IMG/VR virus record: IMGVR_UViG_3300027899_001695
Span: 1 to 64,000 of that record
From: a virus
Length of the DNA stretch: 64,000 nucleotides
Direction: 5' to 3' (one strand)
Both the position numbers and the translations under genes were made by a program. A model generated the notes under the pieces. The model was given only the letters and a program-made list of their open reading frames with translations. It was not told the DNA's origin and ran no database searches. Positions 14,399-35,241 of the stretch are shown piece by piece. Position 1 is the first letter of the stretch, and every line of letters begins with the position of its first letter.

Positions 14399-15263
14399 AC
14401 AGATTGTAAAAGAATTAGGAATTAAAATATATCAAGAGAATAATCATTCTCATGAGCTTTATTGTTGGTGTCCTTTTCATAATGAGAAGAGCCCCAGTTT
14501 TAATATCAACTATATTACAGGAAAATGGCAATGTCATGCTGCTTCGTGTGCTATAAAGGGGCGTTCAGTAGATGAGCTGTCTCAAAAGTTAGTAGGAAAG
14601 ACATTTAATCTTGAAGAAGAGGATAATTGGGCTGAACGAATTCATGAACAGCTGTATCCTACAATAAAAAGGGAAACACAGCCCTTTATTCCCTTACTGC
14701 CCTTAGCATTAAGAAATGCAGGGCAGGTTTTCTTAAACAAAAGAGGTATAGAGAATACTTCCATTAATAAATGGAATTTAATGTATTGGGAATCTGTAAA
14801 TGCGATTGTGATTCCTATAGCGTTCTACGGATATATACTAAGGTATATAGATGCGGAAAAAACAAAAGAAAAGTACAAATATGTAAGCGGAACTAAGATA
14901 ACAAACGGATTATTTGGTGAAGAAAACTTGACATTTGGGGAAGAAAGTAGTATAATATTAGTTGAAGGTAGTTTAGATGCTATTTCGATGCATCAAAAGG
15001 GATTTAAGAATACTTTGGCTTTGTTACATGCCGATATGTCGGATATGCAAATGAAAGTATTAACAAAGTATATGGTTCCTATATATTTGATGCTTGACCC
15101 TGATGTTGCAGGAATTATGGCTTCTATTAAAATCTACCAAAAGCTTCGCTCTACTTTTGTAGTGAGAACCTGTCTCTTGCCTGATGGTAAAGACCCAGAT
15201 TCTTGCTCAATTGAGGAAATAAATAAAGCGTTGGCGGAAGCCAAACTAGGAGGTGTAGCATAA
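14388..15263 (+). CDS. DNA primase, DnaG-like (CHC2 + TOPRIM)
   Basis: A 291-residue primase read from ATG 14388, which has a GGAG ten bases upstream. A longer reading from TTG 14343 has no such site. The CHC2 zinc finger is C28-x2-H31-x17-C49-x4-C54 (CPFHNEKSPSFN, then WQCHAASC). The TOPRIM domain has IILVEGSLDAISM (acidic motif) and IYLMLDPDVAGIM. The protein is shorter than bacterial DnaG and lacks a helicase-interaction domain, as is common in phages. It synthesises primers for the family A polymerase encoded nearby. A consensus sigma-70 promoter sits within the gene at 14928-14956. Confidence 0.86.
   Translation: MQVKQIVKELGIKIYQENNHSHELYCWCPFHNEKSPSFNINYITGKWQCHAASCAIKGRSVDELSQKLVGKTFNLEEEDNWAERIHEQLYPTIKRETQPFIPLLPLALRNAGQVFLNKRGIENTSINKWNLMYWESVNAIVIPIAFYGYILRYIDAEKTKEKYKYVSGTKITNGLFGEENLTFGEESSIILVEGSLDAISMHQKGFKNTLALLHADMSDMQMKVLTKYMVPIYLMLDPDVAGIMASIKIYQKLRSTFVVRTCLLPDGKDPDSCSIEEINKALAEAKLGGVA
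14928..14956 (+). promoter_or_regulatory. Consensus sigma-70 promoter inside primase gene
   Basis: TTGACA (14928-14933), 17-base spacer, TATAAT (14951-14956). This matches the bacterial housekeeping consensus at every position. Transcription would start near 14963, about 570 bases before the single-strand-binding protein gene, and would include the structured leader at 15264-15533. Confidence 0.5.
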
Positions 15264-21924: not shown

Positions 21925-22351
21925 AGTTATATATGGAAAGTATCACTCGGTTCCTTGTAAATTTGTTATTACAGAGGAACAGATTAACGAGGCTAAAGAG
22001 GCTATGCAATATCTAAATAATTGCAAATGGCAAGGAAATTTACAGATTAATATTAAACCAGACAAGATTTATCATGAAAATGCTAAAGAACTGCTACAGG
22101 AACTAAATGCTTTTATTTATGTGGATAAAGAGTTCATGAGTTTATCTTATGATGGCTATGAAGGCGTTGATTATATTACAGAGATGCTGGATATTAGGAA
22201 ACTCCCAAAGATGTGGGCCTCAACCTCTTTTATGGATAACTTGACAGATAAGTACGGTGGTGATATAATAGACAGGCGTTTATTATCAGATGAAGATAAA
22301 GAGAATTTAAGACATTTAACTATTATGTATAAATTAGAGGAGAGCCAATAA
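21914..22351 (+). CDS. Hypothetical protein
   Basis: A 145-residue acidic alpha/beta protein overlapping the previous gene by 11 bases. The start is TTG 21914 with AAAGGAA about a dozen bases upstream. Contains GKYHSVPCKFVITEEQIN and a C-terminal helical part. No function recognised. Confidence 0.55.
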   Translation: MTIKVIYGKYHSVPCKFVITEEQINEAKEAMQYLNNCKWQGNLQINIKPDKIYHENAKELLQELNAFIYVDKEFMSLSYDGYEGVDYITEMLDIRKLPKMWASTSFMDNLTDKYGGDIIDRRLLSDEDKENLRHLTIMYKLEESQ

Positions 22352-22662
22352 TGGGCATGTTTAATATTGTAAAACTTCTTATTCCTTGCCCAAATTGCGG
22401 AAAAGAAGTAGGAGAATTGCAGACAAAAGATGATTATTATGAAGCGTTATATTTGGAACAGGTCGAATTGTGGATGATACGGGAATGCCACACTATTTGT
22501 CCTCATTGTAATGCTTGGATTGAGATTAAATTAAAGAAAGAAAAGATGATGGAATTGACTCTTGCTGATTATGATATAACAACTCGACCATTAGGAGAAT
22601 TTAAAGAGGTGAAATTAAATGAGGAACCCAAACAGAATAGTGCCAATAATGTGTCTAATTGA
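22351..22662 (+). CDS. Zinc-ribbon protein
   Basis: A 103-residue protein with two knuckles, CPNCGK (residues 13-18) and CPHCNAW (about 50-56), forming a zinc ribbon. A copy of the dispersed motif encodes part of the first knuckle (GCGG at 22397, frame TGC GGA). The start overlaps the previous stop. Possibly a transcription or nucleic-acid-binding accessory protein. Confidence 0.62.
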   Translation: MGMFNIVKLLIPCPNCGKEVGELQTKDDYYEALYLEQVELWMIRECHTICPHCNAWIEIKLKKEKMMELTLADYDITTRPLGEFKEVKLNEEPKQNSANNVSN

Positions 22663-22813
22663 AACAATATGGAAACGAAACCCAGATTTAAGACTTTGTC
22701 AGTTGATTGGTAATGCTACGTTTGATAAACGAGATAATTATAGCATTGAAGATGACGAATTAGAGAAAAGATTAAAGGAGTTATATTGTGCCGATAAAAA
22801 AGAAGTTATTTAA
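22619..22813 (+). CDS. Small conserved phage-type hypothetical protein
   Basis: A 64-residue protein (MRNPNRIVPIMCLIETIWKR, then NPDLRLCQLIG and IEDDELEKRLKEL). The pattern is familiar from short proteins of unknown function in many phages. It has AAAGAGGTGAAATTAA upstream and is translated out of frame over the last 44 bases of the zinc-ribbon gene. It contains the GGAG used by the FtsZ-like gene. Confidence 0.6.
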   Translation: MRNPNRIVPIMCLIETIWKRNPDLRLCQLIGNATFDKRDNYSIEDDELEKRLKELYCADKKEVI

Positions 22814-23792
22814 TGCCCCTGTAGTACTCTCATTTGGGAGTGGCGCAGGAAAGATAATCTCAAAGATTGAGACTCCTATGGGGGTTTATAAAATTGCAGT
22901 TAATTCATCTGAAAGAGATTTGCAGATGATTGATACTAGAGTAGATGAAACCGTAGTTTGTGGACAAGGCATTGGTAGTGGTATGGACCCTACACAAGGT
23001 CGTGAGGATTTATATAATGGTCTTCGTAAGGTCTTTAAATACATTGATGACGCTTGTTATGAAGCAAAGGCTACAGATGTGGATATTATTCCAATTATTT
23101 CTTCTCTTGGGCATGGTTTTGGTAGCGGTAGTCTTACATCTGCCATTGGAGAATTACAGAGAAGGTATAAAAATGCTATTATATTGCCTTTTGTGGTGAC
23201 CCCGTTTACTTGGGAAGGTACAGAAGTAATAAAAAGAGCTTATGAAAGCCTAAAAGAGGCTACAGATGTTAGTCCTTGTTTTGTAATTTCAAATGAAGAG
23301 GTAGGAAATGTATACAAAGATATTGGAGCCAGTTATGAATCTATCAATGGGCTTATTGGAGACAGCATTTCTGTTATCCTTAGGAGCTTTTCTGCTACAG
23401 AAGGGGTATTACAAACTATTGATAGGAACGATTTTAGTAAGTTTTTCATTAGGGATATTGCTACTATTCGTCATATGCGTATTAAGTCTGCTAAAGATTT
23501 AACCTTTGATGATATAAAGGAAAACATTGGCAAGAGATGGCTAAAGATTGATGCTAAGATGTTTAAACCTATTAGTAAGCTCAATGTAACCTATATTCTT
23601 GATGGAAAAGGTCCTTTTAGCCCCAAAGTTTTACAGGAATTGCAGGAAAACGCCACAAAGAAAGATTATATCAATAAAGAGTATATTAAACCTTTACTTA
23701 TTGAACGTAAGAAGGTTAAATATTGTGACTTTGTCTGGATGGAATCTGGGTTTAAATTAAAGTGCGATAAAAACATTTATGGTGAATACTAA
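22788..23792 (+). CDS. FtsZ/tubulin-like GTPase
   Basis: A 334-residue protein starting at GTG 22788 with AAAGGAG seven bases upstream. It follows the FtsZ/tubulin GTPase layout: VVLSFGSGAGKIISKI (T1, 12-27), VNSSERDLQMI (T2, 39-49), GQGIGSGMDPTQGRE (T3, 59-73), the tubulin signature SLGHGFGSGS (106-115, GGGTGSG-like), PFVVTPFTWEG (134-144), FVISNEE (165-171), and a T7-like loop IDRNDFSKFF (211-220). The second catalytic Asp of FtsZ T7 (NxDxxD) is not evident, and His/Phe replace Gly/Thr in the signature. It probably forms a cytomotive filament that positions DNA or capsids, as PhuZ or TubZ do. The role is inference. Confidence 0.78.
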   Translation: MPIKKKLFNAPVVLSFGSGAGKIISKIETPMGVYKIAVNSSERDLQMIDTRVDETVVCGQGIGSGMDPTQGREDLYNGLRKVFKYIDDACYEAKATDVDIIPIISSLGHGFGSGSLTSAIGELQRRYKNAIILPFVVTPFTWEGTEVIKRAYESLKEATDVSPCFVISNEEVGNVYKDIGASYESINGLIGDSISVILRSFSATEGVLQTIDRNDFSKFFIRDIATIRHMRIKSAKDLTFDDIKENIGKRWLKIDAKMFKPISKLNVTYILDGKGPFSPKVLQELQENATKKDYINKEYIKPLLIERKKVKYCDFVWMESGFKLKCDKNIYGEY

Positions 23793-23810: not shown

Positions 23811-23834
23811 TAAAAATTGCGGAGAAAAAGAAAG
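23811..23834 (+). repeat. Dispersed GCGGA-type motif, intergenic copy
   Basis: TAAAAATTGCGGAGAAAAAG directly upstream of ATG 23835. A nearly identical copy lies 270 bases downstream (GCGG at 24090) before ATG 24106, there overlapping the end of a gene. The similarity extends well beyond a ribosome site. Confidence 0.6.
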
Positions 23835-24119
23835 ATGATAATAATACCAGATAAAACAAAAGTAGTTTATTTGATAGACTCTCATCCTGACACACCAGAA
23901 GATGCCGAGTATATGGAAGTGAGTGAATGTGATACTATTGAGATAGCAGATAAAGAAGAATGGAATATTATTTATCAAGGGTATAATGCTACGTATAGAA
24001 TTGGATTTTCAAGATGGGCGGATTGGAATTTATATTGGGTGCAATATCCATTTTCTCAATATTTAGAAGACTTAATTAAATTAAAAATTGCGGAGAAAGA
24101 AAAGAATGGAAAAGATTAA
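23835..24119 (+). CDS. Hypothetical acidic protein
   Basis: A 94-residue protein from ATG 23835, preceded by the dispersed motif. It contains VVYLIDSHPDTPEDAEYME and SRWADWNLYWVQYPFSQYL, rich in aromatic residues. No family recognised. Its last codons (KIAEKEKNGKD) are encoded by the next copy of the motif. Confidence 0.55.
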   Translation: MIIIPDKTKVVYLIDSHPDTPEDAEYMEVSECDTIEIADKEEWNIIYQGYNATYRIGFSRWADWNLYWVQYPFSQYLEDLIKLKIAEKEKNGKD

Positions 24120-24634: not shown

Positions 24635-24926
24635 GATAAAACGTCATAAAGAGATTTGCGATTTGCTTCATGATACTTATAAGAAGAAGAATGAGGCATA
24701 TGGAGACTCCTTTGGGAAAACTTTTAAGGAATTAGGAATAATATCTGCAGTAACTCGTATATATGATAAGGTAAATCGTATATCAGCCTTGACACGGGGA
24801 GCTAAAAATGATATAATAGATGAGTCAATATTAGATACTCTTTTGGACCTTTCGAACTATGCAATAATGAGTATAATTGAGGTTGAAGCGAATGCAAGAA
24901 AAGATAATAATAGCATACCCCAGTAA
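24627..24926 (+). CDS. DUF1599-like (nucleotide modification associated) protein
   Basis: A 99-residue helical protein starting at TTG 24627 with GGAG eight bases upstream. The pattern HKEICDLLHDTYKKKNEAYG, DSFGKTFKELGIISAVTR, YDKVNRISAL and DTLLDLSNYAIM matches the DUF1599/Nmad1 family. Members occur in phages and have been linked by context to nucleotide metabolism or DNA modification. No modification enzyme is obvious nearby, so the role stays open. Confidence 0.65.
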   Translation: MDKIKRHKEICDLLHDTYKKKNEAYGDSFGKTFKELGIISAVTRIYDKVNRISALTRGAKNDIIDESILDTLLDLSNYAIMSIIEVEANARKDNNSIPQ

Positions 24927-31638: not shown

Positions 31639-34600
31639 ATGTCTGAAGAATTAATTGATTTTAATCAAGCCTTTGAAGAGTTAGCCAATTCTATCTCAAC
31701 CTCTAAATCTGCCATTGAGATTACTACTTTTGAGGATTTTATTATCAAGGTGTTTTCATTAAGTTACCCTGAGTATAATTTTGATACTTGGCATGTGCAT
31801 TCTATTGGGAATTTCTTAGATAGAGTACTAGCTTCTGAAAATAAGATGTCCGTCTCAGTATTACCTAGATACCATCTTAAAAGTACCCTTTTAGGCTACG
31901 CTTTTTCTATTTACCGTATGCTAACTGCTTTTGGTGATGGTTTGTATATATCTTATAAAGATGAGCTTGCTAATTTCCATTTAAGCAATATTAAAAATGC
32001 TATTAGTCGTAATCCAATTCTTAATCCAATTATGAAAGACCTTAGGCCACAGTCTACAGCAGGAATAGAGTATAAGATAGGGAATAAGCGGGTTAGGATG
32101 TTTTCCTCTGGTATCTTTGCTATGAAACGTGGTTTGCATACAGATTTGTGTCTTGTTCCTGATACAAAGATTAGATGTCATAATGGTTATAGAAATATAT
32201 CAGATATTAATGTTGGAGAGTCTGTATGGACACATACTGCGAAGTGTAAGAAGGTCTCTAAAGTTATGAAAAGAGCAATTAAAGACAGTTTGGTTGTGCT
32301 TTTCTTGAGTAATGGAGAAATAATTAAAGTAACTTCAAACCATCCTATTTTAACTACTAAAGGATGGAAGGAAGCTGGAAACTTAGAATTAACAGATGTC
32401 TTATTTAAACTTGAGTATGATAGTAAATTAAAAGGTAGAACTTATGAAGATATTCATGGTATTGAGAAAGCTAAGATACTAAGACATAAATTTACAACTA
32501 TTGATAGAAGCACTCAGTATAAACCAGTTAAAGGTAAAACATTAGAAGAATATTATGGTGTAGAAAAAGCGGAAGAAATGAAAAAAGCTGTAAGTAATGC
32601 CAATAAAGGAGTGGTTAGATTAGAATGTAGAAAACGAAAGACCGTTACATGTGCATGTGGAAAAGAATTTGAAGTTGTAGCAAGTTCTAAAAGAAAGTAC
32701 CATGCTTTAAAGTGTTACCATAAATATTCTAACTGTGGAAATAACTTTAGGGCTAAGGTTGGTAGTTTCAAATTGCAAAATAACCCTAATTGGAAAAATG
32801 GAGCTTCTTTTGAGCCTTATCCAATTGAGTTTAACTCTAATTTAAAGAAAATGGTTTTAGAACGAGATGGGTATAAATGTGCTGTATGTAGTGGAAATAA
32901 GGTATTACAAATTCATCATATAGACTATGATAAAAATAATTGTTGTGATGAGAATCTAATTACTTTATGTAAATCTTGTCACTCTAAAACTAATAATAGT
33001 AGACTCGAATGGATGGAGTATTTTATTAATGGGGTAATTTCTAATTATATTACTCTTCATAATGGTACTCATATTTTAAAAATTGAACAGGAGCCCTATG
33101 ATGGTTTTGTATATAATTTAGAGGTAGAAGAAGACCATACTTATGTTGGAAAAGGTATTATCTATCATAATTGCACAATTGTTGACGATGTGCTTGGTAC
33201 GGTTGAAAATCCGTTGTCTATGCTGGAACTGGACAAAGCGAAACTTATGTTTAATACAGAGGTACAGAATATTCCTAATAGGGACTGTCCTCTTATTGTA
33301 TTTGGTACTGTTATGTCATATTCAGACTTGTTATTTGATTTGAAAGATAATGCGGAGTTTATGAGTCTTTGGTACCCTGCATTGAATCCAGATAAAGACC
33401 ATGATGTATTATGGGAAGATAAATATCCTAAAGAATGGCTAGAAAAGAAAAAGAGGCAGTCTGGTTGGAAGTCTTTCTCTACTGAGTTCTTACTGATGCC
33501 TGTTATGGCTACAGAGGCTTTCTTTACAAGAGAAGAATTAGACAACAATGCTATAGATTCTACTCTTAAGAACCATTCTATTTACCGCATTTTTAATAAA
33601 GAATGGCATCATGTAGTGGCAGGATTGGATATTGGTAAAAGACGGAACCCTTCTCATCTCGCTATTTTTGTAGACAATGATGAAGGGGTGCTTACGCAAT
33701 TACACCAAGAGTTTTGGGATGGGATGGAGTATACAGAGCAGATTGAGAAAATTAAGGCTGCTGTAGAGAATTTTAAGATAGATAAGTTGTATATTGATGC
33801 TACTCGTGGTGAAATGGAAGAAAGAGGGCTACCTCGTGAGTGTATGATGGTTAAGTTTACTGGTAGAGGTTTTAGAAGCCAGTCTTCGTATGCTACTGAT
33901 TTTGCAAAGTATGTAGAGAACAAAAAGATTAAACTGTTAGATGATACTCGTTTTATAAACCAAATCACGTGTGTAACGAATGATTTGAAAGCTCCAGAGT
34001 CTCCATTAGGGCATGGTGATTGTTATGACCAAGATACTGAAATACTAACAAACAAAGGTTGGAAATTGTTCGCAGACTTAGATAAAACAGAAAAAGTAGC
34101 TACTCTTAATAGTGAGGGGTTTTTAGAATGGCAACAACCTACAGATTATATTGTAAAACATCGTAGTGGGCCAATGTATCAAGTAAAATCAACCCAAGTG
34201 GATTTAATTGTTACTCCTCTACATAAAATGTTTGTAAATGGTACATTAAAACAACCAGAAGAGATATTTAATAAACAAGTTCATTATAAAAAAGATGCCA
34301 AATGGAATGGAGAAGAAGTAGAGTTTATTACTATATTGGATAAACAGATAAAGATGGATGACTGGCTTGAATTTATGGGTTATTATATTAGTGAAGGGCA
34401 TACGACTAAAAGAAAAGGCGATGGCAAGAAGAGCCAATCTTGTATTTCGCAAGGAGAGCAAAAGAGAGACAGAATTAGAGAGTGTTTAAATAGGCTTCCA
34501 TTTAAATATACTGAGAATAAAAGTGGGTTTTGGCTATATAATTCAGACTTGGGAGCTTTATTATTACCATTAGGAAAAAGTTTTGATAAATACATACCTA

Positions 34601-35241
34601 CAGAACTCTTGAACTTATCAACACGCCAATTAAACATTCTTTATGAAGCTTTAATGTATGGGGATGGTACTTTTAATAAAACTTTTAGACAATATTATAC
34701 CTCTTCTATAAGACTCGCAAACCAGTTTCAAGAGTTATTATTAAAAATTGGAAAAAGTGGGAATATATATATTCGTGATTTTATAGGTAGGCAAGCACCA
34801 CATGGTATAACTAGAGGTGTGTGCTATGCTATAGGGATAATTGAGAAAAAGAATAACCCTATGGTAAATAAAGACAAAAAGCGTGGAAAGATTGCGGATA
34901 GTTGGATAAAATATACTGGATGGATTTACTGTGTTACAGTACCTAATCATATAGTGTATGTCAGGCGAAATGGAAAACCCTGCTGGTCTGGGAATAGCTT
35001 TTGGAGCGTTGCTTTGTCTGTAGGAGCCTATCAAGATTACTTTGCTCCAGATAGGGTTAAGGGGTTTAGTTATTTAGGAGATGCTCAGGAAACATTAGAA
35101 ATTAAAAAAGGCGTAGCTTTATCGAAAGATAGAAATGATATATGTAAAATGTGTAATAAACGAACTGTTAGAGTGCTTGAAAATGGTTCATTGCATTGTG
35201 ATAGTTGTTTTACAACATATGCTTTAATGGCAACAAAATAG
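31639..35241 (+). CDS. terL: Terminase large subunit with two inteins
   Basis: A 1200-residue precursor. Removing two inteins (171-511 and 795-1119) leaves a 534-residue terminase. The ATPase domain has SVLPRYHLKSTLLG (Walker A-like, 73-86) and a Walker B strand, DLCTIVDDV, split by intein 1 between Leu and Cys. The nuclease domain has VVAGLDIGKRRNPSHLAIF, then DKLYIDATRGE, and GHGD/SFWSVALS, split by intein 2 directly after the catalytic-type Asp. A C-terminal Cys4 zinc ribbon (CKMCNKRT, HCDSCF) follows. It translocates DNA into proheads and cuts concatemers. Splicing of both inteins would be needed for function. Confidence 0.9.
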   Translation: MSEELIDFNQAFEELANSISTSKSAIEITTFEDFIIKVFSLSYPEYNFDTWHVHSIGNFLDRVLASENKMSVSVLPRYHLKSTLLGYAFSIYRMLTAFGDGLYISYKDELANFHLSNIKNAISRNPILNPIMKDLRPQSTAGIEYKIGNKRVRMFSSGIFAMKRGLHTDLCLVPDTKIRCHNGYRNISDINVGESVWTHTAKCKKVSKVMKRAIKDSLVVLFLSNGEIIKVTSNHPILTTKGWKEAGNLELTDVLFKLEYDSKLKGRTYEDIHGIEKAKILRHKFTTIDRSTQYKPVKGKTLEEYYGVEKAEEMKKAVSNANKGVVRLECRKRKTVTCACGKEFEVVASSKRKYHALKCYHKYSNCGNNFRAKVGSFKLQNNPNWKNGASFEPYPIEFNSNLKKMVLERDGYKCAVCSGNKVLQIHHIDYDKNNCCDENLITLCKSCHSKTNNSRLEWMEYFINGVISNYITLHNGTHILKIEQEPYDGFVYNLEVEEDHTYVGKGIIYHNCTIVDDVLGTVENPLSMLELDKAKLMFNTEVQNIPNRDCPLIVFGTVMSYSDLLFDLKDNAEFMSLWYPALNPDKDHDVLWEDKYPKEWLEKKKRQSGWKSFSTEFLLMPVMATEAFFTREELDNNAIDSTLKNHSIYRIFNKEWHHVVAGLDIGKRRNPSHLAIFVDNDEGVLTQLHQEFWDGMEYTEQIEKIKAAVENFKIDKLYIDATRGEMEERGLPRECMMVKFTGRGFRSQSSYATDFAKYVENKKIKLLDDTRFINQITCVTNDLKAPESPLGHGDCYDQDTEILTNKGWKLFADLDKTEKVATLNSEGFLEWQQPTDYIVKHRSGPMYQVKSTQVDLIVTPLHKMFVNGTLKQPEEIFNKQVHYKKDAKWNGEEVEFITILDKQIKMDDWLEFMGYYISEGHTTKRKGDGKKSQSCISQGEQKRDRIRECLNRLPFKYTENKSGFWLYNSDLGALLLPLGKSFDKYIPTELLNLSTRQLNILYEALMYGDGTFNKTFRQYYTSSIRLANQFQELLLKIGKSGNIYIRDFIGRQAPHGITRGVCYAIGIIEKKNNPMVNKDKKRGKIADSWIKYTGWIYCVTVPNHIVYVRRNGKPCWSGNSFWSVALSVGAYQDYFAPDRVKGFSYLGDAQETLEIKKGVALSKDRNDICKMCNKRTVRVLENGSLHCDSCFTTYALMATK
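32149..33171 (+). mobile_element. Intein 1 of TerL, with HNH endonuclease
   Basis: 341 residues beginning CLVPDTKIRC and ending YVGKGIIYHN before Cys+1. Block B is VTSNHPILT. The endonuclease region has CACGKEFEV, a NUMOD-like NPNWKNGAS, and an HNH core (CAVCSGNKVLQIHHIDYDKN, then LCKSCH). It lies within the ATPase Walker B strand of TerL. It is closely related to the intein in the prohead protease (57558-58436). Confidence 0.9.
34021..34995 (+). mobile_element. Intein 2 of TerL, with LAGLIDADG endonuclease
   Basis: 325 residues beginning CYDQDTEILTNKGWKLF and ending PCWSGN before Ser+1. Block B is VTPLHKMFV. The two LAGLIDADG helices are WLEFMGYYISEGHTT and ILYEALMYGDGTFN. The C-terminal block F is IYCVTVPNHIVYVRRNG. 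The terminal GN lacks the usual His before Asn, a permitted variation that may slow splicing. It interrupts the nuclease active site. Confidence 0.88.

Follow-up and report, generated by a model that had tools for sequence, protein, structure and literature searches.

A phage-encoded GTPase of the tubulin/FtsZ superfamily with closest sequence similarity to archaeal CetZ

A gene at positions 22,788–23,792 (plus strand) of a 64,000-nucleotide stretch of viral DNA (the window, bases 1–64,000 of a 100,207-base IMG/VR virus record) encodes, judging from its sequence and from the predicted structure of its product, a genuine protein of the tubulin/FtsZ superfamily. By sequence comparison, this 334-residue protein adds a new and isolated branch to a known type of viral cytoskeleton protein, and it lies closest to archaeal CetZ. 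Phage tubulins as such are already known (reviewed in PMC7950403), and those that have been characterised are of two types, PhuZ in jumbo phages and TubZ in plasmid-like ones. For jumbo phages, a 2021 survey noted two distinct representatives of FtsZ/tubulin (PMC7824862); tubulin/FtsZ-like genes are also carried by Borg elements (PMC12660748). A literature search on CetZ-like phage proteins found no paper.

Results

The gene was recognised as that of an FtsZ/CetZ-like tubulin-superfamily GTPase from the list of open reading frames, Pfam, a phmmer match to the CetZ structure 3ZID, a structural model and a fold search. Its reading frame, which a preliminary description made from the DNA letters had placed at exactly these positions, is open throughout, starts with GTG and is preceded by a Shine-Dalgarno region (AAAGGAG, 22,774–22,782, plus strand) located 6–7 nt 5' of the start codon. 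Codon usage matches that of the neighbouring phage genes in the gene's own frame only (0.175, versus approximately 0 in the other forward frames).

The protein matched the Pfam Tubulin model PF00091 with 42 bits (curated cut-off 33, E 1.6e-10), and against family HMMs it scored 56 bits with archaeal CetZ-like proteins, 54 with CetZ, 41 with phage members and 32 with FtsZ. Because 2,000 shuffled copies of the protein reached at best 4–8 bits against these HMMs, and all other frames of the window stayed at or below 7 bits, the tubulin match is far beyond chance. When the PDB was searched with phmmer, 3ZID, an archaeal CetZ, was the top match (E 1.3e-14), with FtsZ at 3.6e-6, while the FtsZ equivalog of NCBIfam (TIGR00065) gave 36.5 bits, far under its cut-off of 295.2. 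An unrelated Rossmann protein can be ruled out, as the leading sequence and fold matches all belong to the tubulin superfamily. The Pfam and phmmer matches, together with the predicted fold described below, therefore support the earlier proposal of an FtsZ/tubulin-like phage GTPase. PhuZ and TubZ, which it named as known phage tubulins, were not supported as the matching family, the best relatives being of the archaeal CetZ type. The PhuZ profile phrog_4733 gave no match up to E 0.1 and a direct BLAST comparison with phiKZ PhuZ gave E 0.18, on which PhuZ membership was rejected; membership of the TubZ group was rejected since the TubZ-like_C domain (PF22453) was not found up to E 1 and TubZ, like PhuZ and RepX, was absent from the PDB sequence matches up to E 1. 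The order of profile scores is CetZ-like, TubZ-like phage family, FtsZ and, far behind, PhuZ.

All seven GTPase loops, T1 to T7, align in sequence order with those of CetZ and FtsZ; the preliminary description had likewise seen seven GTPase elements in order. Beta strand 1 and loop T1 (VVLSFGSGAGKII) are encoded at 22,821–22,859 (plus strand), the model showing a strand at E12–16 and a helix from residue 18; aligned with CetZ and FtsZ, T1 reads SFGSGAGK, T2 is represented by N39, T3 by G63xG65...G71 and T6 by N169. Loop T5 is PFTWEG (residues 139–144; 23,202–23,219, plus strand), as in FtsZ, archaeal CetZ-like proteins and the Methanothrix-type CetZ. Loop T7, TIDRNDF (residues 210–216; 23,415–23,435, plus strand), had been described as lacking the second Asp, which is wrong, because the two T7 acids seen in FtsZ, CetZ and the phage relatives are matched in the alignment by D212 and D215. 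The Asn found two residues before the first Asp in FtsZ-type T7 loops is missing here, and in CetZ as well.

The unusual element is the T4 signature, SLGHGFGSGS (residues 106–115; 23,103–23,132, plus strand), which we compared across 42 aligned proteins (the window protein and 41 relatives). Relative to the canonical GGGTG[ST]G, the window sequence GHGFGSG is in place and keeps three glycines, with Gly replaced by His109 and Thr by Phe111. The His109 position is occupied by Gly in all 41 relatives, PhuZ included, and the Phe111 position by Thr or Ser in every one of them, so that the two substitutions noticed earlier are real and, among the proteins aligned, found only here. PhuZ, an accepted member of the superfamily, also has a relaxed T4 loop (GGASGST). 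Altered nucleotide use is a possible consequence of the two substitutions, and with T4 altered in this way (GHGFGSGS) the binding or hydrolysis of GTP could be weaker. The G105S substitution of E. coli FtsZ84 lies in what we take to be the same T4 signature motif, and the protein that carries it is impaired. FtsZ84 was studied in PMC4603965.

With an alignment of four sequences AlphaFold2 gave a pLDDT of 41, and with 32 sequences a good GTPase domain (about residues 10–200) with pLDDT mostly 80–96, about 90. As the 32-sequence alignment consists of tubulin homologues, this model and the sequence result are not entirely independent of each other. Foldseek ranked 3ZID CetZ first (2.8e-13) and FtsZ next, and the VIA-align Z scores were 23.5 for M. 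jannaschii FtsZ, 23.4 for CetZ1, a tie, and 21.9 for 3ZID; the best viral models by fold were an uncultured phage entry named 'FtsZ Cell division GTPase' and a 'Cell division protein', and then PhuZ-type proteins. The core helix H7 is predicted at residues 183–202 (23,334–23,393, plus strand). Both points that the preliminary description had singled out for checking came out in its favour, with the profiles leading to the tubulin superfamily and the model containing this H7-like helix. We are confident that the modelled GTPase domain and H7 have the tubulin/FtsZ fold, the predicted C-terminal half being of low confidence: residues 204–334, the C-terminal activation domain, have pLDDT <50, and the model consequently does not show the filament interface. 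In this low-confidence part, there are only nine residues beyond the last predicted strand, and the last 30 residues of the protein carry a net charge of +2.

In genomes of the phylum of Methanothrix, the window protein found a match in 201 of 294, the best being a Methanothrix CetZ (8e-16), and an alignment of the window protein and 3ZID alone, used as query, returned Methanothrix only. Single-protein scans of viral and genome contig collections and tblastn in phages and plasmids found no relatives. The tblastn miss in phages reflects a limit of sensitivity, since gp138 of Bacillus phage G (annotated 'putative FtsZ-like') is a relative by direct comparison (pairwise E 7e-11). Nine contigs matched a DNA pattern built on T4 and T5, but a tubulin-like reading frame was absent at the matched site in all of them; the DNA polymerase as query found no kindred viral contigs and DNA similarity found no phage. 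Overall, the viral, phage, plasmid and genome collections searched held no close relative of the window protein. In a maximum likelihood tree the protein stands beside CetZ and CetZ-like proteins (support 68/40) on a very long, isolated branch, and AU tests rejected none of the groupings tried (p 0.39 with the phage family, 0.35 with FtsZ, 0.14 with CetZ-like proteins and 0.10 with CetZ). Given this long branch and the absence of any rejected grouping, the protein is, by sequence, an orphan on the CetZ/FtsZ side of the superfamily, with a tree compatible with several placements.

The phage relatives were reached stepwise, the first one through alignments, more through a pattern, then gp138 of phage G and, last, 40 IMG/VR loci. 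In IMG/VR, at least 40 contigs of uncultured phages, up to 223 kb in length, encode a separate TubZ/RepX-like family, phrog_17961, annotated as of unknown function (loci L072–L111, and also L057, L061, L062, L064 and L070). Among 32 aligned members, 29 match phrog_17961 and nine match TubZ-like_C, and for the one member compared with the PDB the closest structure was RepX (E 1.5e-16). In the members of this phage family, as in gp138 and the window protein, the GTPase loops are CetZ/FtsZ-like and T7 has the DxxD form; the members differ from the window protein in T5, which is mostly P[TSK]xxE[ST] in the family and PFxxEG here, and the phrog_17961 model does not match the window protein. The gene neighbourhoods of the family are varied, with RuvC, ribonucleotide reductase, portal and protease, or terminase. 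One member (L061:6405–8036) is interrupted by an intein-like sequence exactly at its T7 loop (..NSEYN / CVDAETEALTQRGW..). The tblastn searches made found no isolate with a family member besides phage G.

The tubulin gene lies among genes of a tailed phage, including tail tube, DnaB helicase, Toprim/DnaG-type primase and single-strand binding protein genes, with PolA (a family A DNA polymerase), RecA, a Cas4-like nuclease, RuvC, ribonucleotide reductase and an intein-containing terminase as further neighbours; the setting among replication genes given in the preliminary description is thereby borne out, and for the siphovirus type also given there the check covered the tail-tube match. The large terminase frame (1,200 aa, 31,639–35,241) apparently holds two inteins, of which one contains an HNH endonuclease and the other a LAGLIDADG-like part. 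Sigma-70 promoters identical to the consensus in 12 of 12 positions with a 17-base spacer occur three times in the window, versus 0.05 expected (14,928–14,956, 22,241–22,269 and 24,789–24,817). The latter two lie on either side of a block of small genes, the tubulin gene among them; both promoters are on the plus strand and have a TG before the -10 element, the one at 22,241–22,269 (TTGACA-17-TATAAT) being the probable start of the block and the one at 24,789–24,817 lying downstream of it. In the same block, all on the plus strand, are a 103-aa zinc-ribbon-like protein of unknown function (22,351–22,662), a 64-aa frame that overlaps the start of the tubulin gene (22,619–22,813) and, 3' of the tubulin gene, a 100-aa frame without a family match (23,817–24,119). 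Promoters of this kind around the block suggest transcription by a bacterial host RNA polymerase, and we infer that the block is expressed early. Together with bacterial-type RecA and NusG, these promoters point to a bacterial host.

Near the tubulin gene, in tests of low power, no TubR-like partner or DNA-binding adaptor was recognised by family match, small unassigned frames being present, and no clear iteron array or centromere was seen, the only repeats being weak, A-rich and dispersed. A search of the record for chimallin, the protein of the nucleus shell, made without a positive control, gave no match, and on this weak test we rejected a phiKZ-type nucleus.

Further along the record, outside the window, are a phage NusG-like transcription antiterminator (L002:18398–18904; record 81,398–81,904) and a GDP-mannose 4,6-dehydratase that scores above the NCBIfam equivalog cut-off (L003:13810–14907; record 95,810–96,907). 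The latter adjoins genes that resemble those of glycosyltransferases and methyltransferases, which suggests that the phage modifies sugars. A probable AAA ATPase (L002:2359–3426) and, further down, a metallopeptidase/VWA-like protein (L002:4285–5391), likewise outside the window, look by eye like a pair of the MoxR-VWA type.

Discussion

Among known systems, the CetZ of Methanothrix (Methanosaeta) thermophila represented by 3ZID is the best match both in sequence and by Foldseek, sharing with the window protein N-x4-DL, PFxxEGT, ELxxRYKNA and a DxxDF T7 loop. The two differ in T4, which is SGGTGSS or GGGTGSG in CetZ and GHGFGSGS here, in the shorter N-terminal and C-terminal parts of the window protein, and in that CetZ is archaeal whereas the window protein is found on a virus with bacterial-looking genes and promoters. 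With FtsZ the protein shares the predicted fold and all loops, both T7 acids included, but it lacks the NTD of the FtsZ T2 loop as well as the C-terminal linker and anchor. PhuZ, the TubZ of phiKZ-like jumbo phages, is likewise a phage-encoded tubulin-superfamily GTPase of similar length (327 aa). Its helix H11 and acidic knuckle (PMC3678025) would seem to find little room in the window protein, and it belongs to jumbo phages, whereas the record studied here is only about 100 kb long.

In this superfamily GTP is bound between subunits and hydrolysis is completed by the T7 loop of the neighbour (for phage tubulins, PMC3678025). As the T4 pair is the only element not retained, the window protein probably forms GTP-dependent protofilaments: GTP-bound monomers would stack head to tail, each subunit using its T7 loop to complete the GTPase site of its neighbour, and hydrolysis would make the filament dynamic. 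With less certainty, host RNA polymerase may express the protein from the strong sigma-70 promoter, and the resulting filaments may position or organise phage DNA and its replication in the bacterial cell, analogously to PhuZ and TubZ, with a CetZ/FtsZ-like protein that seems to lack their long C-terminal tail. This role agrees with the placing of the gene among replication genes and with PhuZ and TubZ as precedents for the positioning of DNA or capsids by phage tubulins (PMC7950403, PMC3678025). A phage FtsZ/CetZ-type cytomotive GTPase whose filaments position or organise phage DNA is a proposal that we regard as evenly poised, and it is with the same middling confidence that we rank it over interference with the host, plasmid-style partition and a non-dynamic scaffold.

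The known phage inhibitors of FtsZ are, to our knowledge, small unrelated proteins, which counts against a protein of this kind acting on the host, with its filaments, or co-assembly with FtsZ, blocking or diverting host division or cell shape. Such an action would suit a protein that is FtsZ/CetZ-like and not PhuZ-like and whose promoter block suggests expression by the host polymerase, and there are parallels in phages that target FtsZ, such as lambda with Kil (PMC3961180), and in the cell-shape role of CetZ1 in Haloferax (PMC10606840). However, identity to the archaeal FtsZ proteins compared is only about 21–27%, which makes co-assembly with host FtsZ unlikely, and an FtsZ-type C-terminal linker or tail is missing; we consider this the most plausible of the rival explanations, and an unlikely one. 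Somewhat less probable still is that the protein partitions a plasmid-like prophage in the manner of TubZ, through an unrecognised DNA-binding adaptor and centromere. TubZ of phage c-st carries out such segregation (PMC7950403), other phages have TubZ/RepX-like relatives and small uncharacterised frames flank the tubulin gene; this reading has to contend with the absence of TubZ-like_C, of RepX and TubZ among the PDB matches, and of a recognised adaptor or iteron array. The T4 pair seen in no aligned relative, the very long branch and the short C-terminal domain would also suit a degenerate or repurposed protein that kept the fold and lost dynamic GTPase activity, acting as a nucleotide switch or a static scaffold. 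We give this the least credence, as all other loops and both T7 acids are conserved, as expected under selection for hydrolysis, in a frame that is intact and normal in codon usage.

Positioning or organisation of phage DNA thus remains the reading that we favour. It is tentatively conceivable, though on balance doubtful, that the protein represents a third lineage of phage cytoskeleton, of the CetZ/FtsZ type and distinct by profile from PhuZ and TubZ/RepX, carried by a phage below jumbo size with no recognisable nucleus shell or partition partner, and with a T4 loop that alters the use of GTP. Judging by the phrog_17961 relatives, tubulin-like proteins seem to be frequent among uncultured phages and to have hardly been sampled in isolated ones. 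That a phage of approximately 100 kb carries a CetZ/FtsZ-like orphan suggests, in turn, more frequent recruitment of this cytoskeleton by phages, drawing on another part of the superfamily, and the orphan offers a compact protein in which to test whether the nucleotide-binding signature can change without loss of filament dynamics.
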